The notes under the pieces are model-generated. The model worked only from the letters and a program-made list of their open reading frames with translations. It ran no database searches and was not told where the DNA came from. Below, piece by piece: positions 31,090 through 59,976 of a DNA stretch of 64,000 nucleotides; position 1 is the first letter of the stretch, and each line of letters starts with the position of its first letter. Location of the stretch: contig JAMPKV010000004.1 in the NCBI GenBank assembly GCA_039962225.1, positions 1 through 64,000 on the forward strand, in the 5' to 3' direction. Made by a program: the position numbers and the translations under genes. This DNA comes from Microcoleus sp. AS-A8 (GTDB lineage: Bacteria; Cyanobacteriota; Cyanobacteriia; Cyanobacteriales; Coleofasciculaceae).

Positions 31090-32802
31090 TCAACGCCAAC
31101 CGAACCAACGCAGGATAGGCACAAGGATGTAATAACTCACTCCCACCCAGAAGGCTAGGATAACTCCCCAGAGGCCAAAAAAAGCAATGGTATCGATGAA
31201 CTTATCAGAGTGAGAGAAGATATCAATCACAGAGGCCGCATTTAATACGTTTAACCAGACTAAACCCCCAAATAGGGTACCTGTACCCAAGGCTGCAACG
31301 AAGGCGTGAACGAGGTAATGGCTGGGTAATCCCAACCCTAAAACTAAAGGCACAACCCCAACCGCGGTCACCAATCCTAACAAGCGTTCTGGTAGTGCAA
31401 CAGTGCCACTGGCTTGCCAAATAAACCAAGTTATGGTAAAGCCGAAAATTCCCGTAATCCCAGATACGATAAAGCGTCGCTCTTGACCAAAGCCCCCCGC
31501 AAGGGTCAACCCCCAGGCAGTAGACCATCCTGCGATCGCAAACATCAACATTCCTCGCCATTCTGTAATTTGCAGTTGGGGAAAGAGAAGCCACTGTTGG
31601 GACGCCATCCAATTGGCTAAGTGATCATCTACGAGAGTTCCATGGATCAAAGCCAACCCAAGGGCAGCACCCGTAGTAGCACCCAGTCCTCCTAACACCA
31701 TCTCCAAGGTAGTGTCCAGACAGGCGAAAACGATGCCAGTGACCACACCAAACACAAAACGCACGAGGCTGATCGCGCCTTGACCGAATGCCCCAAGCAC
31801 ACTTTCCGCTACCGCCAGTGCCTGATCCAGGGTCGTGGTAATGATATCCGACAAGGGCACCGTGGGTCGTGAAGTGGGCGGCCTCCTCATGGGAGAACTC
31901 CAATCCAAACGCCGCTGAATCTCAGCCGCCGTAGCTGGGCGTTGTTGGGGGTCGAGGCGTACCATGTCATCGAGTAAGCCAGCCAGAGCAGGGGTTACGA
32001 CCGCTTGAGAGCGCCAGCGCAAATCTCCCGTCTCCGGGTCTTGCAAATCCTCCAATTCCTGACCCGTGAGCAACTGAATCATCGTCCGACCTAGGGCGTA
32101 GAAATCCGCCGTTGGCCCGACCGCTTCCCCTGTAATCTGCTCCGGTGGACTGTAGCCGGGAGAAACCAAACGTGTCGAAACCCTCTGAGAACCCAGCGAC
32201 ATCGAGCCGAATTGTTTCGCACCCCCAAAATCAATCGCCACTAACTGACCCGTTCCCTCGCGCAGCATCAAGTTTGAGGGTTTGATATCCCGATGAATAA
32301 TTCCAGAACGGTGCAACTCTCCTAAAATCTCCACAGATTGGTCAAGCCAATCCCGCACGACTTGCTCCGAACACCCCTGAGGATGGTCGTTGAAAACATC
32401 CTGCAATGTCTGACCGTTGATTTTTTCCATGACCAAGCAGGAGAGTAAGCGCTCTGGGGGATACCCCAGTCTCACCGTAAAGTAGCTATCTTGCTCAACC
32501 CTGGGGACACCCGGATGCTTCAGGCGTTGTAAAACCGATGCCTCTTGCTCAAATAGCTGTAATGCCTTGGGGGAAGTTTCCACCAAAACCTTCAACACCT
32601 GCTCCTTGTTGCGCCCCAGATCCCAGATGGTGTAGATGGCGGCAAAACCTCCCGTCCCCAACTTCTGGAGAGGAATATAGCGATTATTCAATAGCAGAGC
32701 CGCTCCACAGCCATTACAAAACTTATTCCCCCAAGGTTGCGGATAAGGGCGGGGACAATCGGGGTTAATGCAGTGAACCGCCTGGGCAACAGACTGATGC
32801 AC
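31090..32802 (-). CDS. Membrane Ser/Thr protein kinase with zinc ribbon
   Basis: A 570-residue Hanks-type kinase. The N-terminus has a four-cysteine zinc-ribbon-like motif (C11, C16, C29, C32: HCINPDCPRPYP then KFCNGCG), a common feature of one cyanobacterial kinase group. The kinase domain runs about 45-305 with LGTGGFAAIYTIWD, HRDIKPSNLML, IDFGGAKQFG and SPGYSPPEQITG. About six hydrophobic segments follow (for example FVFGVVTGIVFACLD and HGTLVDDHLANWM), so the C-terminal half is in the membrane. It is separated from the hybrid kinase gene by a 202-base spacer with tandem repeats. The target is unknown. Confidence 0.93.
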   Translation of the reverse strand: MHQSVAQAVHCINPDCPRPYPQPWGNKFCNGCGAALLLNNRYIPLQKLGTGGFAAIYTIWDLGRNKEQVLKVLVETSPKALQLFEQEASVLQRLKHPGVPRVEQDSYFTVRLGYPPERLLSCLVMEKINGQTLQDVFNDHPQGCSEQVVRDWLDQSVEILGELHRSGIIHRDIKPSNLMLREGTGQLVAIDFGGAKQFGSMSLGSQRVSTRLVSPGYSPPEQITGEAVGPTADFYALGRTMIQLLTGQELEDLQDPETGDLRWRSQAVVTPALAGLLDDMVRLDPQQRPATAAEIQRRLDWSSPMRRPPTSRPTVPLSDIITTTLDQALAVAESVLGAFGQGAISLVRFVFGVVTGIVFACLDTTLEMVLGGLGATTGAALGLALIHGTLVDDHLANWMASQQWLLFPQLQITEWRGMLMFAIAGWSTAWGLTLAGGFGQERRFIVSGITGIFGFTITWFIWQASGTVALPERLLGLVTAVGVVPLVLGLGLPSHYLVHAFVAALGTGTLFGGLVWLNVLNAASVIDIFSHSDKFIDTIAFFGLWGVILAFWVGVSYYILVPILRWFGWR

Positions 32803-32882
32803 AACGACCTAGATACACAGTGCCCCTCGATTCTACACAACAAGGAAGGGGGAATGAAGGTTATCGGTGTTTCTCCCATCCT

Positions 32883-32953
32883 CCCATCCTCACGCTTAGC
32901 TCCGGTCCCCCTCCTCCCACTCCCATCCTCACGCTTAGCTCCGGTCCCCCTCC
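32883..32953. repeat. Tandem repeat, 39-bp period
   Basis: The sequence CCCATCCTCACGCTTAGCTC and following CGGTCCCCCTCC occurs at 32883-32914 and again at 32922-32953, embedded in a C/T-rich tract. It lies in the spacer between two minus-strand kinase genes. Confidence 0.8.
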
Positions 32954-33004
32954 CATCCTCCCACTCCTTCCACCTCGCGGGTGGGAAACTTTCGCCGCCT
33001 TGCA

Positions 33005-34972
33005 CTAGTGAGTGCTGAGAACGGTTTGTAGATTTTTCAACAATTCATTTGAGGTGTAGGGTTTGGGCAAAAAAGTTTTGACGCAACTCCCAACGAATTC
33101 AACCATCTTATGGTTTGATACCAATCCGCTGACACCAATAATCTTGACCTGCGGATTAATTTTTTGTAACACCCGAATGGTTGTTGGCCCATCCATCGAC
33201 GGCATCATCATATCAATCAAAACTGCCCGGACTTCCTCCTTATGTTCCGTATACAGGGCGAGAGCTTCAATCCCATCACTCGCATCTAAAACTCTGTAGC
33301 CATTGGCTTCCAGCAAGGTTTTACTAACTTCACGAATAGATTTTTCGTCATCCACCAACAGAATTAATTCCCCATGTCCTGCCAGTAATTCATGAGGCTC
33401 GGCTTGAGTTCCATCGATTTCGCTGCTTTGTGTAACCGGGAAGTACACCTTAAACTCGGTTCCTGTTCCGACTTCGCTATAGACGTTCACAAAACCACCG
33501 TGGCTTTTGATAATGCCGATCGCGGTTGAAAGACCCAGTCCTGTTCCTTTACCCAGCTCTTTGGTAGTGAAAAAAGGCTCAAAAATTTTATCGATGATTT
33601 CTTTAGAAATACCACTTCCTGTATCCGATACCGTAATTACCACATAAGGCCCAACCTTAGCATCCAAATTGATGCGGGCATAGTTCTCATCAACCCATAA
33701 ATTTGTCGCCGCAATCTTCAAAATCCCCCCTTCCGACATGGCATCACGCGCATTAACGCAGAGGTTCATGAGTACCTGATGCAGTTGGGTCGCTTCTCCC
33801 CGAATCGTCCAAAGATTTTGCGCGGGTAAATCGGTGTGAATCTCAATTGCTCTGGAAAAGGTTTGTTTAACAATCTGCTCAATTTCTGAAATTAATTTCT
33901 CCACCTTTAATGTGCTGCGCCGACCTTCGAGTCCGCGTGAAAACAACAGGACTTGCTTCACCAAATCTGCCCCACGTCGAACATTGGTTTCCATGATGGA
34001 AAGCCACTCTAGGCTCTGCTCATCATGAAGTTTAGCTTCCAATAGTTGAACGGTCATCATAATCGGGGTCAGTGCATTGTTGAGGTCGTGGGCAATACCG
34101 CTGGCCAAGGTTCCCAGACTCTCCATGCGCTGAGCTCGGAGAAACTGCGCTTCGAGTTGTTTTTTCTCGGTAATGTCAGTGTTGACGGTGAGGATAGATT
34201 TGGGTAGCCCCTGTTCATCACAGACTAAAGTCCAGCGCGTCGTCACGACAATTTCCTTCCCTTGTTTGGTGACATGACGTAACTCACCCTGCCAAGAGCC
34301 ACACTCAGCCAGAAGTTGCGGTGGGTCTTCTATATCACATAAGGCTTCCCGATACAAGAGTTTCAGGGCATTTTTTCCGATCGCTTCTTCGGCTGTCCAA
34401 CCATACACCTGTTCCGCCCCTTTGTTCCAAAATAGAATTTGGTTATCCAAGTCTTGAACGAGAATCGCATCCGTGGTGATATCGAGCAAGGCGGCTTGTT
34501 CGCGGATTTTTTGTTCAGAGAGATGGCGTTGCTGGATTTCTTGTTCCAGACGCTGATTTTGTTCTTGGAGGGTTTTCGTCAGCTTACGTAGGCGTAACTG
34601 GAGCTGGACACGCGCTAAAACCTCTTCATGCTGAAGCGGTTTGGTAATGTAATCCACCGCACCCAGATTTAACCCTTTAACCTTATCCGTCGTCTCCGAT
34701 AGCGCCGTCATGAAAATCACAGGGATGTCCTTGGTGAGTTCATTGGCTTTCAAACGGCGGCAGGTTTCAAACCCGTCCATTTCTGGCATGAGTACATCCA
34801 ATAAAATGAGGTCGGGTGGGGCATATTCAGCCCGCTCAAGCGCACTTGCGCCATCTTCAGCAATCAAAACCTTAAACCCGGCAAGACCTAAGAAATCAAA
34901 CAGCATTTCTAAATTGGTGGGCGTGTCATCCACGATGAGAATGACACCTTGATTCGTTGGATCAGCACTCAT
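33005..34972 (-). CDS. Hybrid sensor kinase, REC-PAS-HisKA-HATPase-REC
   Basis: A 655-residue cytoplasmic phosphorelay protein. The N-terminal receiver (about 10-125) has the phospho-acceptor aspartate in DLILLDVLMPEMDGFE. A coiled coil (KTLQEQNQRLEQEIQQRHL) leads into a PAS domain (ITTDAILVQDLDNQILFWNKGAEQVYGW). The H-box is GTLASGIAHDLNNALTPI and the HATPase domain has NLCVNARDAM and SDTGSGI. A C-terminal receiver (about 530-655) has VLIDMMMPSMDG. The start at 34972 lies inside the last codons of the upstream 2022-residue kinase gene with an 11-base overlap, so the two are translated from one transcript and probably form one relay. Confidence 0.95.
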   Translation of the reverse strand: MSADPTNQGVILIVDDTPTNLEMLFDFLGLAGFKVLIAEDGASALERAEYAPPDLILLDVLMPEMDGFETCRRLKANELTKDIPVIFMTALSETTDKVKGLNLGAVDYITKPLQHEEVLARVQLQLRLRKLTKTLQEQNQRLEQEIQQRHLSEQKIREQAALLDITTDAILVQDLDNQILFWNKGAEQVYGWTAEEAIGKNALKLLYREALCDIEDPPQLLAECGSWQGELRHVTKQGKEIVVTTRWTLVCDEQGLPKSILTVNTDITEKKQLEAQFLRAQRMESLGTLASGIAHDLNNALTPIMMTVQLLEAKLHDEQSLEWLSIMETNVRRGADLVKQVLLFSRGLEGRRSTLKVEKLISEIEQIVKQTFSRAIEIHTDLPAQNLWTIRGEATQLHQVLMNLCVNARDAMSEGGILKIAATNLWVDENYARINLDAKVGPYVVITVSDTGSGISKEIIDKIFEPFFTTKELGKGTGLGLSTAIGIIKSHGGFVNVYSEVGTGTEFKVYFPVTQSSEIDGTQAEPHELLAGHGELILLVDDEKSIREVSKTLLEANGYRVLDASDGIEALALYTEHKEEVRAVLIDMMMPSMDGPTTIRVLQKINPQVKIIGVSGLVSNHKMVEFVGSCVKTFLPKPYTSNELLKNLQTVLSTH

Positions 34973-37900
34973 TTTGCCTCTTCATATTCTTTAATAATTC
35001 GAGGATTTGTTTTCCTTTAAAACTTTTGGCAAGTTGACGCAGATGGGTGGCTAACGGCAGCCATTGGGGGTCTAATGCCTCAAGCTGTGAGGCTTGTTCC
35101 ATAATGCCTCTAAGGTCACCCATCATGGCCAGATCGAATAAGATTTCCAGCTCCTGTGCTGGCAACGGGATGAATTCCGGGCCAGTAAGCTGCTTGTTGC
35201 CATTGAGCAGTTGCTCTTGACCCATGACGGCTGACTCCTGTAAGAGCGACACCTGCGTCGCTCCTACTCCTGACGTCTCATAAACCCATTCCAGCCCCAA
35301 GTAACCTCGTAATTTTTCTAAAAGATCTGCCTCTCGGACGGGTTTGGGGAGAAAATCATCACAACCGACTTCCCGACTTTGTTGGCGATCGAAGTCAAAC
35401 ACGCTAGCTGAGATGGCAATCACGACAACTCCCTCCAACTCCGGCAATAGCCGGATGCGACGGGTGGTTTCAAAGCCGTCCAGTACGGGCATGACTAAAT
35501 CCATAAATATTAAATCGGGCTTAAACTCACGCGCTTGGGCAAGACACTCTAAGCCATTCGGTACTTCTAGCACTTCAAACCCCAAAGGCTCTAGCAGATT
35601 GATCAGGACAGAGCGATTCGTCCACTTGTCATCTACCACCAGAACTTTCCGTTTGGAGCCTTTGAAGCCAATAATATGGCGTTCATCTACCTTGGCAATA
35701 TCCGCTCCTTGGTCAACTTCAGGCAAATCCAAATCCAACCAGAAAACGCTTCCTTCTCCTAGGGTACTCTTTACCTCCAGTGACGCACCCATCATCTCAA
35801 CGAATTGACGGCTGATTGCCAGTCCCAAGCCGGTTCCTTCGGTTTCGCGGCTGTGTTCGCCTACTTGCTGGAAGGGTAAAAAGATTTCTTCTAATTGATT
35901 GGGTGCAATGCCAATCCCTGTGTCTTCCACCTGAACTCGGAGTTTCCCCTGCTGATAGCCGACTTTGAACGTTACACGACCCTTTTGTGTAAACTTAACG
36001 GCATTACCGAGTAAGTTAATCAAAACTTGCCGCAGTCGTTTCTCATCGGCTCTAATGGCTTTGGGCAGTGGAGTCAAGGTTTCGTAAACCAACACAAGAC
36101 CCTTTTGTTCGGCACGAATTCGACAAATTTCCGCAATGCCTTCCAGAAATTCAGAGAGAGCAAAATCTTTCGGGTAAAGCTCCATTTTCCGGGCTTCGAT
36201 TTTAGAGAGGTCTAAAATATCGTTAATCAGCGTCAGCAGGTGTTCACCGCACTGATGAATAATCCCAATCCCATTTTTTTGCCGATCGCTTAATGTTTTG
36301 TCTTTTTTAAAGATTTGGGTGTAACCTAAAATGCCATTGAGCGGGGTACGGAGTTCGTGGCTCATGTTCGCGAGGAATTCGCTCTTGGCTCGGTTTGCTG
36401 CGTCGGCGGCTTGTTCGGCTCGTTGGCGTTCACGAATTTCCTGGTGCAGATGCAAGTTTTTATCTTGTAACTCTAGCGTTCGCTCTTTGACTTTTGTTTC
36501 CAGGGTTCGGCTGTAGTCCGCTAATTGCTCGTGAGATTGTTTCAGGTTAGTGTTAGCATCTTCTAAATCCTGATAGAGACGAGCATTTTCAATGGAGATG
36601 GCGGCTTGAGAGGATAACAATTGTAAAACTTCCAATCGCTCTGGCGTAAAGGCACCTGTCGTCAGATTATTTTCTAAATAAAGAATGCCAATGAGTTTTC
36701 CTTGGTAAACAATCGGTGTACATAAAATAGATTTAGGTTGATGCTGAACGATGTAGGAATCGGTGCTAAATAATCCTTCCTCAGTGGCATCGTTGAGTAC
36801 AACATATTCCTGTGTTCTAGCGACATAATTGATGACGGATAGAGGCAGTTGCTGACTGGTTTCTACAGGCATCGATTGCTCTACGGTTACCTCTTGTTGC
36901 TCCACTCTTCCTGAGGCTTCAATCAGTAACTGGTTGGCCTTTTCTAAAATCAAAAATCCTGTTTCTGCCCCCGCATTTTCGATGACAATTTGCATCAATT
37001 TGGTCAATAACTGACCGAGTACAATCTCGCCGGAAAGGGCTTGAGAGGCTTTGATAACAGTGGCTAAATCCAACATGCCAGAACTTCCTTGAGTTGTAGC
37101 ACTGATGGTTCGATTCACTTCTATATTGGTGTTTTTTGGGTTCGGTGTTCGGGAAAAAAGTTGAGGGTATTGAATTTCTAACTCTCTCCGTTTAAGTGTG
37201 GCTCCCCAGCTCACATAGGCGTAGTAAGATTGGGTGAGATAGTCAATCGCCATTTTTTCTCGATTTCGCGAGAAATAAAATTTGGCGGCGAGTTCACTTG
37301 CGAGTGCTTCTTCCTGGAGGAAGCCCTGTTTTCTTGCCCCAGCGATCGCGCGATCATAAAACTCCATGGCATCTAAAGGTTGCCCCAAAAAACGTGTCTT
37401 TTCCGCTTCTACTAAGTCATACTTATGTTGATAGTTGTCTGGAGCATGAAACGCCCATTTTTTCAGGGTTTCCTGATTCAGGCTAACTTGCAATAGAGCA
37501 GTTTTTTGGTCGCTTTCCGGAAGGCTGGCAGCCTGAGCGAGGAGTGCCAATGAATAATAGAAATTATGTTGACCATTAATCATCATTCCCAGCACGCCGC
37601 CTGTATGTTTTAATGCTGCTGAGGCATGGGCAACGGACTGAGCGTAATCTTGGGAAAAATAACAGAAAATTGCGTTAGCGAGATAACCTGCAAAAATACA
37701 CATATGATTATTGATGGCAATTAGACGTTGCAGGTTTTCCGCGTCAGTTACCATCTCGTTATGTAGACTGTATCGTTCCTCAGCTTTATCTAAGAGTTTT
37801 AATCCCAAGCGCCGCCATACATTCAGGTAGTCACTTTCTAAGGTTTGTTTCCGTTTCAGCAGACATTCAAAATATTGAGCCTGCTTTTGGGACACCACTT

Positions 37901-40900
37901 CCAGGGATTCCCCGCTAAACAATAAGTGGTCACAATAGTAAAATGTATTGTAGCCAGCCCAAGCCATATCTCCAGTTTCCAAGGCACTTTGAATGGCCTC
38001 TTGCAAAGGCGCTAACGTTACCTTAAAATGCTCTTTCCAAACACTGGCATGAGGATAAAATAGACCATATATTTTGGCTTTAAGTTCTTTGGCATTAAAT
38101 TGCTCTAACAATCTTAAACCCAGCCGTCCAGAGTGATAAGCCGCATCTATCTCTCCTACACCCGATAGGTAAACCGCATAAAGGGCATAGGCAAAAGCGG
38201 ATTGGGGGGAATGACCATATTCAATCGAGAGATTAACCTGAGTTAAAAGAATCGGCAAGAAAATGGGATTATTGCTCATATAAGCTGCCGGTGCAAGACT
38301 CATCAAAAGATGCAAAGCCGCTAATTTATAGGGATCTGTCATCACCGGAAAGTCTTCTAAATCCTCAAGCTGAGGCAAAGTAGGCACGACTCCACCTTCG
38401 TTAGGCGTGGGAGATAAAGAAACACCTAGCATCTGGAGTACTTGCACACCAGTTTCTATAGCTTTTAGCATCTGGTTTTGTGCAATATAAAACTGGATGT
38501 TTAGTGCATACACCTTCATTTGATCGAGCAAATTCGTGGCTTTTTGCAGTACAATTTCTGCGAGTTCACCAGCTTGTTCAAAGTTAGTATTAAGGTATTG
38601 TGCTTCCACCGCTTCTACATACAGATTGAGTGTCAGCTCGTAGTGATGAATCCAGCTATCTTCGCTCAGGAGTTCTAGACCTAGCGATAAATATTTCACC
38701 GCTGTTTCATAAGCTGTTGCTGATTTCGCTTTTTTCCCGGCTATCCAATTTAATCTTGCTAGTTCATCTTTTTGGGATTGCTGTAGAATTAACTCAGAAC
38801 CAACATTTAGCTGGTTGACAATTTCAAATATATTTTCCTCAAGCTCTGTCTCCGAGGTATGTTTGAGTAACAATTCACCAATTTTCAGGTGAGTCTTTTT
38901 TTTCTCTTCTATGGGAATAATGGAATAAGCCGCTTGCTGTACTCGGTCATGAAGAAATTTGTAAGAAATTTGCAATTGAGACATGGGAATAATTGATTGT
39001 TCCTGTTCCATATCCCAATCCCCAACGAGAGGAATTTTGTAAGATTGACTCTGAGGTAAAACGAGGCCAACTTTCAACGATTCCCACAAATTTTGTGCGG
39101 TTTCGGATAAAGATTTTTCATTAACAATGCTCAGAACGTCTAAAGTAAACTTATCTCCAATACAGGCGGCTAATTTTAAAATATCCTGAGTTGTTGGTGA
39201 TAGCTTTTGAATCTGGTTGACCATCAATTCCACAACATTATCAGTGATATCGATGCCTCGTAGAAGGTCAATATTCCACTGCCAAGTTCCTTTGCTGAAA
39301 TTAAAAGTAAATAGGTTGTCCTGATACAGGGATTTGAGCAACTGAGTTAAGAAAAATGGATTTCCTTGAGTTTTGTTAAACACTAACTCAGCCAGAGGTT
39401 TAGAATTTTTCTCATTACTACGGAGAGTCTCACCCACTAATTGAATGACATGATTGAGGTGCAAAGGTTGTAGAACAATGTTATTAATAGTTGCACCAAT
39501 GGCATTAATTTCCTCTAACGTCAAAATCAATGGATGAGTGGCATTGACTTCGTTATCTCGATACGCCCCAATGAGTAATAAATAGCGGCTATCCCGGTCA
39601 CTCATGAGCAGGTCAATAAACTTCAGAGAGGCTGAATCCGCCCACTGTAAATCATCTAGGAAGAGTACTAAAGGATGTTCTTGGGTGGTAAATACATGAA
39701 GAAATTGTTGAAAGATTCGATTAAATCGGTTTTGTGATTCAGTCGGTCCCAATTGAGGAATCGCTGGTTGAGAACCAACCACCCGCTCCACTTCAGGAAT
39801 CACATCAATGATGACTTGAGCATTAGTACCTAATGCTTCTAATAGTTTTGTTCTCCAAATCGCTAGATTTTCAGCATTTTCTGTGAGCAATTGCCGCATT
39901 AATTCCTGAAAAGCTTGAATCAAAGAAGCATAAGGAATATTCCGCTTAAATTGGTCAAATTTACCGGAAATAAAGTAACCCTGTTGGCGTACCATTGGTT
40001 TATGAACTTCATTCACTAATGAAGACTTGCCAATCCCAGAGTAACCGCTAACTAAAATCATTTCTGTTGCCCCCAGACTCACTCGGTCAAAGGCATCCAT
40101 AAGAAAGGTGACTTCTTGGTCGCGACCATAAAGTTTTTGTGGGATGAGAAATTGGCTGTATAAATCTAGCTGACCCACATCGAAGGAGGAAATCTGACCC
40201 GACTCCTCTAGCATCTTCAGACAAGTTTCCAGGTCAGCCTTTAATCCCAAGGCAGTTTGATATCGTTCTTCAGCGGTTTTCGCTAATAATTTCATCACAA
40301 TATCGGAAACAGGTTGGGGAATTTCTGGATTGACTTCTCTAGGAGATATGGGTGTTCTTGCAATATGGCAATGAACCAATTCCAATGGCTCGGTCGATTG
40401 AAAAGGTAGCTGTCCCGTCAGCATTTCATAGAACGTAATGCCTAAAGAATAAAAGTCCGTTCGATAATCAATGGAGCGGTTCATCCTCCCAGTTTGCTCT
40501 GGAGACATGTAGGCGAGGGTACCTTCAATCAAATCAGGATTACCAACGATCTGATTTTCAACGGATAAGCACGATGAAATACTAAAATCAATGATTTTTA
40601 CTTGATGGGTTTTAGGGTTGATTAGGATATTGTAGGGCTTAATATCTTTATGAATAATATTCTCTCGATGCACCTGCTCAAGAATTGAAACAAGCTGAAG
40701 AGTAATTGGTAATAAATAGGTTAATTCCAATTTTCGGTTGATGAGATTTTTTTTTAGAGTTTCTCCCCCAAAATCTGATAAAACCAATGCCAACCCGTTT
40801 TTATATCTTTCCAACGATAAGGGTTTAACAATTCCTTCTATTTGCAAAGATTGAAGAATTTTATACTCATGTTTTAACCGAGATATCTGTTCTAAAGTGG

Positions 40901-41030
40901 GATACTCAGCTTTGATTGTTTTAATAATTACTGAGAATGATTCTATCTCTTTCGTCGCACGATAAACACGGGTGGTGGAACCGTCATAAATGACTTCAAT
41001 TAGGTTGTAACCGGCAATGGTTAAGCTCAT
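34962..41030 (-). CDS. Giant Ser/Thr kinase-AAA-TPR-GAF-histidine kinase-REC protein (HstK type)
   Basis: 2022 residues combining two kinds of kinase. Order: Ser/Thr kinase (about 1-265; [10 protein letters not shown] replaces the usual HRD, followed by IIDFSISS); an AAA ATPase with Walker [13 protein letters not shown] near 330; a long helical/TPR-like stretch; GAF domain near 1335-1490 ([26 protein letters not shown]); coiled coil; HisKA with [18 protein letters not shown]; HATPase with [10 protein letters not shown] and GTGLGLAI; receiver with [13 protein letters not shown]; and a short C-terminal HPt-like helical tail of uncertain identity. Such proteins are a known cyanobacterial class (HstK in Anabaena). 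No signal peptide is present. The downstream hybrid kinase overlaps by 11 bases. Confidence 0.95.
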
Positions 41031-57627: not shown

Positions 57628-58515
57628 ATGAGCAAACCAATTTTTGAACTTGTTGATGAGCTACCAACCAGCAACATCACCACAATGGCGTTGAGGTCTC
57701 TCGACTTTGTCATTCCTGGTGAGTGGCAAAATGTGGTTGGTTTTGAGAATACCATTCGCACGGTCACGGGTGAAACGGACGAACAAATCATTCAGCAAAT
57801 CGGCGATCGCGCTGTCTACCTGTACAATGACCGCTCTCAAGGCTACCAACGTGCCATGTGGCTTTACCAAACCGTTGACAAGACGGATTATGCCTTGGGT
57901 GCGGCGGCTCTAGCCAATAAAGTCGGCGAAAAAATCCCACTCATGGGGTTTTTAAGCAACCTAACACCCAAAGCGGACAAAGCCCAAACGATTGATTTGT
58001 CCTTGAAGCTGGTTGTAGAGTTAGTCGCCTTCTGTCAGATTAACGGCATCCCCGGCGATAGTATTGGGGACTTTGTCGCCTCTTTAGGGGAGTACAGTGG
58101 CGAAAATTTGATGCGGATGGCCGCGTTAGTGTGTTTTGATGGCCTGATTCCCCTCGGCCCCGATTTTATCAGGCAGGCACAATCCACCCTTTCGGGACTG
58201 AGTCCTTCAGATTTAGAACGCAATCAGACCTTCAGCAGCGTTAGTGACGCCATTCCTGGGGGCGATGCGGGCGGTAAGCTCAACTTTATCGGTCAAAGCT
58301 TTGATTCAGTCAAAGGTTGGATGAGTAATTTTGTGGCCTCAAAAAGTTTGACTCCACAAAATGTCGCCAATAACCTGCAAGGGTTTATTGACGTTGCTGA
58401 TAGCAAATTGGACTATCTAGGGGCTTTTCTCGATGTGTCTACGAACTATTTCGAGCATACAGGCACCCAAACCTTAGCTCGACGACTGATTGAGAGAGCG
58501 GTTGCTGAAATCTAG
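57628..58515 (+). CDS. Unknown protein next to the partner-switch module
   Basis: A 295-residue soluble protein. The start at 57628 is set by AAGGAG 7 bases upstream and the natural MSKPIFELVDELPTS opening; an earlier GTG at 57529 is less likely. The fold looks all-helical (RAMWLYQTVDKTDYALGAAALANKVG, AQTIDLSLKLVVELVAFCQ, GFIDVADSKLDYLGAFLDV). No enzyme or binding motif was recognised. Its stop overlaps the end of the convergent RsbW-like gene by 4 bases. Whether it is functionally linked to that module is unknown. Confidence 0.8.
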   Translation: MSKPIFELVDELPTSNITTMALRSLDFVIPGEWQNVVGFENTIRTVTGETDEQIIQQIGDRAVYLYNDRSQGYQRAMWLYQTVDKTDYALGAAALANKVGEKIPLMGFLSNLTPKADKAQTIDLSLKLVVELVAFCQINGIPGDSIGDFVASLGEYSGENLMRMAALVCFDGLIPLGPDFIRQAQSTLSGLSPSDLERNQTFSSVSDAIPGGDAGGKLNFIGQSFDSVKGWMSNFVASKSLTPQNVANNLQGFIDVADSKLDYLGAFLDVSTNYFEHTGTQTLARRLIERAVAEI

Positions 58516-58988
58516 TGCCGTTTACGCATCAGCAGACAATTGCGCTCGTCTACGCGCAAGTACGCTAGCTCATCCATGAGCTGGTGCATAAAAATCAGCC
58601 CTCTGCCTCCTATTTCCTCTAGTGGATCAGCATCTTTATGGTGGTCGAGGGCTTTTTGGAGTTTAGTTTGCAAATCAAATGGCTGCCCCTGATCCCAAAT
58701 TCGCATCTCTAAGCTGTCAGGAAATATCTTCAACTCCAGCTCAATGGGTGTTGTTGGAGGTAAGTTTTGATGAGCATGGCGAACTGCATTTGTAAAGCCT
58801 TCGACAAATGCGAGTTGGCACTGCGATTGAAAGGGTTGAGGCAGGAGCGGTTTGGTAAAATCCTCAAACCACTGTAGAACTGGTGTCACAGCGTGCAAGT
58901 CCGTCTCGACTTGGAGACGGTCTTGTTTGAGGGGTTTTTCGTTATGCCTCAACCAAACAAGGTTCCAGGGTTTTTTAAACAGCGCCAC
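58512..58988 (-). CDS. RsbW-like serine kinase/anti-sigma type ATPase
   Basis: About 158 residues of the HATPase_c_2 group. The N-box is QLAFVEGFTNAVRHAHQN, with glutamate and asparagine for Mg-ATP; G1 is IWDQGQPFD and G2 is GGRGLIFMHQLMDELAY. In this family the protein phosphorylates a serine on a STAS partner and thereby switches partners. The chosen GTG at 58988 gives a 14-base overlap with the STAS-sugar transferase gene just upstream; a TTG at 59006 is possible. No sigma factor gene is nearby, so the target is probably not a sigma factor. Confidence 0.85.
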   Translation of the reverse strand: MALFKKPWNLVWLRHNEKPLKQDRLQVETDLHAVTPVLQWFEDFTKPLLPQPFQSQCQLAFVEGFTNAVRHAHQNLPPTTPIELELKIFPDSLEMRIWDQGQPFDLQTKLQKALDHHKDADPLEEIGGRGLIFMHQLMDELAYLRVDERNCLLMRKRH

Positions 58989-59976
58989 TGTCTTTACGAA
59001 ACACAACCAAGATTGTTTTGAGAATGAGCTTCAGGTCATACGCCAAGCTCCAGTTTTGCTGGTAGCGTAAATCCAGTCTAATGATGTCTTCAAAATTGCG
59101 GATGGAAGATCGCCCATTGACCTGCCATTCACCAGTCATTCCGGGTTTGACATCTAATCGTTGCCATTCGGGTACCTCATAAATGTCAACTTCATTCGGT
59201 GTCGGGGGTCGGGTGCCAACCAAACTCATCTCACCTTTGAGGACATTCCAAAACTGAGGGAGTTCATCCAGACTCGTTTTCCGCAAAATGCGACCCACCT
59301 TTGTAATTCTGGGGTCGTTTTCCATTTTGAATACCTTACCATCTGCTTGATTTTGATTTTCAAGCTCTTTTTTTCTGGCTTCGGCATCAACATACATGGA
59401 GCGGAATTTCCAGATCTTAAACGGCTTTCCCATCCAACCTAAGCGGGTCTGACTAAATAAGATCGGGCCTGGAGCGTTGAGTTTAATCGCCAGCGCGATC
59501 GGAATAAACACTAAAGCTGTAATGCCTAAACCCACCAGCGAACCCAAAACGTCTAAGATGCGCTTGACCTTAGATTGTACAGAAGGGTGAGTCGTTGGCA
59601 ACTCTGCTTTTGAGCGATTGGCAACGGAATTTGCCGATGCCTCCTGTGGCTCAATCGTCAAAACTTTGTCGAGCGCCGTCATTTCCAGTACGGCTTTCAC
59701 CTGCGGAAGCACGCCCCTGAGTACCAACTGAACATCCTTGAGTCGAGCGCTCTTATGATTGCTAACGATTGCGCCAATCCCACTGCTGTCGATAAACGTC
59801 GTCTGTGAAAAATCAAAAACGAGTTTTTCGGGAAGTGAGCTTTTTTCTAAAAGCTGGTGACAAGCGTCTTTAAAGGCCACAGCGTCAACCCCAGCCAAGC
59901 GAATCGGTATCTGCATTACAGCAGCACCGTTTGTGAAATTTACCTCAAAACTTGTTTCTGGAACTGGGTCAGCCAT
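58975..59976 (-). CDS. STAS domain-sugar transferase fusion
   Basis: A 333-residue two-domain protein. Residues about 8-110 form a STAS (anti-sigma antagonist) domain with FDFSQTTFIDSSGIGAIVSN; S64 in DSSG corresponds to the phosphorylated serine of SpoIIAA-type proteins. Residues about 137-333 are a bacterial sugar transferase (WbaP/ExoY type) that transfers a sugar phosphate to undecaprenyl phosphate: one membrane segment (LDVLGSLVGLGITALVFIPIALAI), FKIWKFRSM, TSLDELPQFWNVLKGEMSLVGTRPP, KPGMTGEWQVNGRSS. The RsbW-like gene overlaps its 3' end, so a phosphorylation-controlled priming step is likely. The ATG at 59976 is clear. Confidence 0.94.
   Translation of the reverse strand: MADPVPETSFEVNFTNGAAVMQIPIRLAGVDAVAFKDACHQLLEKSSLPEKLVFDFSQTTFIDSSGIGAIVSNHKSARLKDVQLVLRGVLPQVKAVLEMTALDKVLTIEPQEASANSVANRSKAELPTTHPSVQSKVKRILDVLGSLVGLGITALVFIPIALAIKLNAPGPILFSQTRLGWMGKPFKIWKFRSMYVDAEARKKELENQNQADGKVFKMENDPRITKVGRILRKTSLDELPQFWNVLKGEMSLVGTRPPTPNEVDIYEVPEWQRLDVKPGMTGEWQVNGRSSIRNFEDIIRLDLRYQQNWSLAYDLKLILKTILVVFRKDSGAV

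Follow-up and report, generated by a model that had tools for sequence, protein, structure and literature searches.

We analysed a 64,000-nucleotide window from the cyanobacterium Microcoleus sp. AS-A8 (contig JAMPKV010000004.1, positions 1 to 64,000), which carries a pair of minus-strand genes as first described: one gene encodes a STAS domain fused to a phosphoglycosyl transferase (PGT), and the HATPase_c_2 gene downstream of it encodes an RsbW-like ATPase (Table 1). Pfam places the STAS domain at residues 11-115 of the fusion protein (PF01740, E 1.8e-16) and a Bac_transf domain at residues 138-326 (E 4.5e-68), confirming the claim of a first-pass annotation, made from the letters alone, that a STAS domain with a DSSG motif (S64) is joined to a complete transferase. 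The same annotation had the ATPase gene overlapping the 3' end of the fusion gene; the RsbW-like gene does adjoin it, and the overlap itself is uncertain because its extent is set by the predicted kinase start: 32 nucleotides (nt) from the TTG at 59006, 14 nt from the GTG at 58988, and none from the TTG at 58952.

The transferase part combines the Bac_transf domain with residues Asp237-Glu238, which we take to be the catalytic dyad of monotopic PGTs, so that the fusion is predicted to belong to this class. Its top NCBIfam model is EPS_sugtrans (TIGR03025), at 290.8 bits slightly below the cut-off of 295.55. The full-length WcaJ and WbaP models match in the C-terminal part only and below their cut-offs; the fusion does not qualify as a large PGT of the WbaP/WcaJ type, having a STAS domain at its N-terminus instead of the large-PGT N-terminal part. 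The fusion is probably an enzyme that starts exopolysaccharide building. In five relatives, the STAS domain sits between two sugar transferases in a triple fusion with a GT26 (WecG/TagA/CpsF) domain, as seen with Pfam in L041 and L094.

The phospho-acceptor motif of the STAS domain is D63-S64-S65-G66, with the predicted acceptor serine directly after an aspartate as in partner-switch STAS proteins. Ser64 aligns with the same first serine of the motif in the SpoIIAA chains 1th8_B and 1auz_A, which is presumably the phospho-site Ser58 of SpoIIAA; chain 1tid_B has an alanine at this position. The serine is kept in all 150 distinct fusions that we compared (155 fusion open reading frames, or ORFs, pooled from several searches, minus those sharing identical last 250 residues).

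The product of the neighbouring gene has its HATPase_c_2 domain at residues 35-162 (Pfam, E 2.3e-25) and aligns to RsbW (6m36, E 3.9e-07); a profile of 47 such kinases, including four from the unlinked cassettes described below, aligns with the same RsbW structure (E 3.2e-14) and with SpoIIAB structures. Glu69 and Asn73 of the N-box and the ATP-lid glycines Gly107 and Gly136 are invariant in 61 of 61 fusion-adjacent kinases, the signature of the RsbW/SpoIIAB type. Taken with the invariance of the acceptor serine, this fits an active kinase and a constrained acceptor. We assume that Glu69 is the equivalent of the catalytic glutamate of SpoIIAB-type kinases. In Synechocystis Slr1861 its counterpart is Glu43 (PMC12329169). 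The best-scoring NCBIfam model is RsbW, far under its equivalog cut-off; the RsbW/SpoIIAB equivalog models give 50.1 bits against 145, 48.2 against 155.05 and 24.6 against 135, and we therefore call the ATPase RsbW-like, not RsbW or SpoIIAB.

The pairing is conserved in the family of Microcoleus sp. AS-A8 and recurs in other cyanobacterial families. A combined STAS and transferase match is present in 20 of the 20 family genomes searched, with 96% identity within the genus, which rules out an annotation or sequencing artefact. In 19 of the 20, a same-strand HATPase gene follows a fusion copy at a distance of at most about 0.5 kb; the single genome without the pair is 67% complete. The first-pass annotation had made its reading depend on this neighbourhood being kept in relatives, and it is. 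Several of these genomes hold extra fusion copies with no HATPase near.

Across the phylum, an even draw of 386 genomes gave 87 with a fusion match at E 1e-88 or better, and 86 of these matches begin at or before query residue 20. In the remaining one, G193 (L177:7253-8286), the STAS and transferase parts are split between two overlapping frames, possibly by a frameshift or sequencing error, and a HATPase follows. In at least 33 of the 87 genomes, a same-strand HATPase gene follows the fusion at a distance of no more than 1 kb (listings compared by hand), and fetched stretches add the pair in G061, G322 and G332 as well as the frame-split G193. A scan of named genomes returned at least 586 related stretches, of which the best 80 all carry cyanobacterial names. 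In this set, chosen by fusion similarity alone, 20 of 76 distinct fusions have an adjacent kinase (71 of the 76 have at least 1 kb of downstream sequence). Records of Microcystis, Planktothrix, Microcoleus, Calothrix, Cyanobium and Synechococcus contain the pair. Because both fusion and pair are kept in several cyanobacterial families, we do not regard the pair as a chance arrangement. The overall count of 61 adjacent kinases among 150 fusions is not a frequency, as 19 loci (L139-L157) were preselected for carrying both genes. At one locus (L233:8962-10155), two successive HATPase genes follow a single fusion.

For spread outside cyanobacteria, the analysis covered plasmids, where 1039 records matched and 11 of them span 80% or more of the query. 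Nine of the 11 are among the matches listed: five from Synechocystis, two from Salmonella, and one each from Aquisphaera and Paracoccus. The two Salmonella matches have 34% identity and are annotated as WbaP-type enzymes, and in the Aquisphaera ORF the transferase part alone is matched, with no STAS domain.

The window itself contains no sigma-70 region 2 match, the nearest on the contig being at C4:91018, about 31 kb away, and no SpoIIE match, the nearest lying about 303 kb away at C4:362922. Here the first-pass annotation was correct in seeing neither a sigma factor nor a PP2C gene nearby, and the locus lacks the sigma gene of a SigF/SigB-type partner switch. A large ORF at G000:C4:62628 (G000 being the genome of the window) was considered as a nearby phosphatase and rejected: it encodes a PAS/HisKA/HATPase/REC/Hpt protein that the PP2C queries matched via other domains.

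The genome as a whole (7.75 Mb) has six SpoIIE genes, and among relatives 11 of the 150 fusions have a PP2C of the SpoIIE type no more than 6 kb away. From six genes in 7.75 Mb, rough arithmetic gives a chance expectation of about 1% of fusions, or 1-2 of 150, related genomes being non-independent. Each of these 11 has a HATPase in the same range, and 10 have a STAS-only gene too; STAS-only genes lie within that distance of 15 of the 150. At least four layouts hold the phosphatase. In L155, L169, L239 and L240, fusion, kinase and STAS gene are accompanied by a REC-PP2C on the opposite strand; L154 is a variant that lacks the STAS gene and has its PP2C on the same strand. In L152, L206, L208 and L241, the order is fusion, kinase and PP2C with the STAS gene opposite; Pfam finds PAS domains in L152 and L206, and PP2C and kinase overlap by 4 nt in L206, L208 and L241. 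L162 has kinase, REC-PP2C and STAS ahead of the fusion, and L257 has fusion and STAS, REC-PP2C, then kinase.

On contig C8 of the window's own genome, a REC-PP2C gene is accompanied by a second HATPase and a STAS-only gene. All 11 fusion-near PP2Cs score 301-494 bits against this protein and keep D..GHG, FSDG and DD.S, which we take to be the functional motifs of PP2C; since the PP2C label was assigned with queries from the same genome, membership of one subfamily is partly built in. The presence of this REC-PP2C type on C8 makes it a specific candidate for an unlinked phosphatase. The cassette of STAS-only, REC-PP2C and HATPase genes recurs in cyanobacteria as a partner switch of unassigned output. 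Twenty stretches around cassette-type kinases in other genomes have a PP2C near in 17 cases, with a STAS-only gene as well in 13, and none of the 20 contains the fusion. Of the unlinked kinases from 14 genomes of family f6 (taken as Nostocaceae or near), three belong to a STAS/PP2C cassette; the nearest relatives of these unlinked kinases are mixed.

A tree of 86 kinases (148 columns; 37 of 83 inner branches well supported) places all 52 fusion-adjacent kinases without a PP2C in one branch of 64 rows. Nine of the 10 kinases beside both a fusion and a PP2C belong to the same branch, and 19 of the 20 beside a PP2C alone fall outside it. The branch has a UFBoot support of 86, under the usual bar of 95, and an SH-aLRT of 97. 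Label changes along the tree number at least 9, compared with 31.0 in shuffles. This is the pattern that an old, dedicated kinase would leave.

Known systems help to place the pair. With SpoIIAA/SpoIIAB and RsbV/RsbW it shares the N-box Glu/Asn of the HATPase_c_2 domain and the DSSG phospho-acceptor of the STAS domain; unlike them, it has its STAS domain joined to an enzyme, with no sigma gene in the window and phosphatase candidates only elsewhere in the genome. In SypA/SypE of Vibrio fischeri and HmpU/V/W of Nostoc punctiforme, a STAS protein is the output, controlling biofilm and hormogonium functions respectively, and its effector is unknown (PMC4517449, PMC6495340, PMC8256260); in contrast to the window pair, the STAS domain of both systems is a separate protein. 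Unphosphorylated SypA is reported to be active, and the same is suggested for HmpV (PMC4517449, PMC8256260). A phospho-signal onto an initiating PGT also has a parallel in Myxococcus xanthus, where phosphorylated EpsW activates EpsZ (PMC12802240), although there a response regulator acts on a large PGT, whereas here a STAS domain would be addressed by an RsbW-type kinase.

A close relative of the transferase may have a known role. The STAS-PGT protein encoded on plasmid pSYSM of Synechocystis 6803 (L283:14983-15936) is 51% identical to the window fusion over residues 20-333 and is the only gene in its stretch annotated as a sugar transferase, amid sulfotransferase and glycosyltransferase genes. 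From this setting and annotation we take it to be xssP of the xss cluster, and the protein is thus probably XssP. XssP is described as the glycosyltransferase that primes synechan synthesis; without it, bloom formation is lost and exopolysaccharide accumulation is suppressed (PMC8205485). The text of that paper has no word starting 'STAS'. A second, putative example is all4160 of Anabaena PCC 7120, which a review, citing Wang 2007, lists as a glycosyltransferase bearing a STAS domain at its N-terminus (PMC8256260) and which is among the genes that the heterocyst envelope polysaccharide depends on (PMC4390870). In view of these roles, proteins of the STAS-PGT kind appear to prime exported polysaccharides. 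A STAS-glycosyltransferase fusion is thus already published. A dedicated kinase for such a fusion was not found in the literature searched, which left most subscription journals outside and returned nothing joining a STAS domain with a phosphoglycosyl transferase, or a STAS domain with a sugar transferase and partner switching; the fusion architecture, and perhaps also the pair, may already be described beyond it.

On balance we lean towards a partner switch with this pair as its effector end, in which phosphorylation of Ser64 would gate the fused transferase. The HATPase_c_2 protein would bind the STAS part of the priming transferase and, as its dedicated serine kinase, place a phosphate on Ser64; RsbW-type kinases bind and then phosphorylate unphosphorylated STAS domains, as in the case of Slr1861 and Ssr1600 of Synechocystis, for which a paper reports assays of binding and of kinase activity, with modelling that points to Ser59, right after Asp58, and to a contact with Glu43 of the kinase (PMC12329169). 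A SpoIIE-type PP2C encoded elsewhere in the genome would strip the phosphate. That an unlinked phosphatase would be required had been proposed in the first-pass annotation, and the same genome does contain a candidate, the REC-PP2C at G000:C8:244036, which may fill the dephosphorylating role. Kinase binding and phosphorylation state would set the activity or placement of the transferase, and with it the share of undecaprenyl phosphate loaded with the first sugar of the exopolysaccharide. The sign of the effect is a guess modelled on SypA and HmpV: the transferase would be active when unphosphorylated and turned down by phosphorylation. As a whole, the earlier interpretation is partly supported.

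Several observations weigh against this gating. No HATPase lies within 6 kb of 86 of the 150 distinct fusions, and 81 of the 86 have at least 1 kb of downstream sequence. Nostoc-type copies form the bulk of these, and the loci of the Nostoc copies in the named set gave no HATPase match; likewise, most copies fetched from family f6 have none, L154, L155 and L169 being copies with one, and the Calothrix (L239) and Tolypothrix (L240) fusions also have theirs. The 89 fusions that lack a neighbouring kinase keep Ser64 as strictly as the 61 that have one, so the motif does not separate paired from unpaired copies. The locus holds no PP2C, and the pSYSM fusion has an eroded loop, DSAAI for DSSGI with the serine kept, in a 31-kb plasmid stretch with no match to the window kinase. 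(An 'ATP-binding protein' in that stretch was rejected as the kinase, being an AAA_33 protein.) The STAS domain might then be a dimerisation or docking module that replaces the large-PGT N-terminal part, free of phospho-control, with the kinase serving other STAS proteins. This is quite unlikely in our view, even though the fusions without a HATPase, the placement of STAS between two enzymes in the GT26 triple fusions, and the eroded loop of the probable XssP, a protein needed for exopolysaccharide (PMC8205485), all point its way: a purely structural role is at odds with the serine being invariant throughout the 150 fusions, with retention of the pair in 19 of 20 family genomes, and with the PP2C and STAS-only genes near some fusions.

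Co-evolution of kinase and STAS domain is equivocal too. In 49 pairs, kinase distances follow those of the STAS domain (rho 0.82) more than those of the PGT domain (0.39; partial 0.78), and four subsets go in the same direction (partial 0.39-0.65). In 12 genomes with both kinases, however, the adjacent kinase tracks the PGT domain (0.80) more than the STAS domain (0.70), and the unlinked cassette kinase tracks that STAS domain at 0.695, so no specificity is seen; the partial correlations are 0.38 for kinase and STAS given the cassette kinase and 0.35 for cassette kinase and STAS given the kinase. (Thirteen genomes were chosen and G221 was dropped, its STAS domain not being found in the short locus used.) As this control does not support the 49-pair result as proof of specificity, we do not rest the case on co-evolution. 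The control would suit a network in which neighbouring and cassette kinases act on several STAS domains, making the transferase one output among several in a global circuit. PmgA and Slr1861 have common substrates in Synechocystis (PMC12329169), the window's genome has seven STAS matches and five HATPase_c_2 matches above cut-off in frames shorter than 180 residues, and cassette-type genes adjoin fusions in L162 and L257; fusion-adjacent kinases mostly form their own branch, though, and we consider such pooling highly unlikely. Fairly unlikely, in our estimate, is control in the reverse direction, where the STAS domain would be a membrane-tethered antagonist of a kinase that in fact serves a sigma factor or some other STAS protein as its output, and the transferase would report the state of the polysaccharide or lipid carrier to transcription without being controlled itself. 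Slr1861 is reported both as the kinase of Ssr1600 and as an anti-SigC factor (PMC12329169), making a transcriptional output possible for the window pair; of the 13 sigma-70 region 2 matches in the genome, one lies about 31 kb from the pair; and all4160 transcripts are lower in an Anabaena sigC mutant, direct and indirect effects being undistinguished (PMC4390870). Yet the window has no sigma factor gene (relatives' loci were not searched for them), and a STAS-only gene would suffice for this task, leaving the fusion to a transferase incidental.

If the transferase is gated as we favour, it would represent a direct post-translational switch on lipid-carrier loading in bloom- and mat-forming cyanobacteria, the carriers of the pair including Microcystis, Planktothrix, Microcoleus and Calothrix records, and the switch may act on slime production right at the start. 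It would also offer a candidate for the unknown effector of sigma-less partner switches such as those of SypA and HmpV. We put forward only tentatively, as somewhat short of an even chance, the wider proposal that cyanobacteria place the first committed step of exopolysaccharide synthesis under direct phospho-control, through a PP2C governed by REC or PAS domains and an RsbW-type kinase dedicated to the STAS domain of the priming transferase, and that STAS-PGT proteins may be the missing effector of HmpV-type outputs. The partner switch would then end in an enzyme instead of a sigma factor, and a stand-alone STAS protein such as HmpV would compete with the STAS-PGT for the kinase.

Table 1 Features of the window, followed by related loci in this and other genomes.
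Feature	Position	Strand	Evidence
STAS-PGT fusion gene	58975..59976	-	ORF, 333 residues, ATG start; Pfam STAS and Bac_transf
STAS domain	59632..59946	-	Pfam PF01740, E 1.6e-16 in genome search; aligns to SpoIIAA structures
Ser64 codon, predicted phospho-acceptor (DSSG)	59785..59787	-	Sequence; Ser in 150/150 distinct fusions
PGT domain (Bac_transf)	58999..59565	-	Pfam PF02397; aligns to WbaP structures
Asp237-Glu238 dyad	59263..59268	-	At least 90% invariant, alignment A2 of 76 fusions
RsbW-like HATPase_c_2 gene, predicted STAS serine kinase	58512..59006	-	ORF, Pfam, RsbW 6m36 match; first possible start TTG 59006
Glu69 codon, N-box Glu	58800..58802	-	61/61 adjacent kinases; aligned to N-box Glu of RsbW 6m36
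Alternative kinase start GTG	58986..58988	-	14-nt overlap; matching Val begins ORF of homologue L048
Alternative kinase start TTG	58950..58952	-	Zero overlap; one residue ahead of Met in several homologues
Cassette STAS-only / REC-PP2C / HATPase	G000:C8:243673-245821 (L050:7674-9828)	alternating	
Triple fusion GT26-STAS-PGT	L041:7536-9290		Pfam run
Triple fusion GT26-STAS-PGT	L042:2583-4319		
Triple fusion GT26-STAS-PGT	L047:8171-10021		
Triple fusion GT26-STAS-PGT	L094:10320-12143		Pfam run
Triple fusion GT26-STAS-PGT	L097:1609-3477		

Elsewhere in the window, positions 31093-41030 of the minus strand hold a cluster encoding a Hanks kinase (570 residues), a REC-PAS-histidine kinase (655 residues) and a 2022-residue protein that combines Hanks kinase, AAA, GAF, histidine kinase and REC domains.

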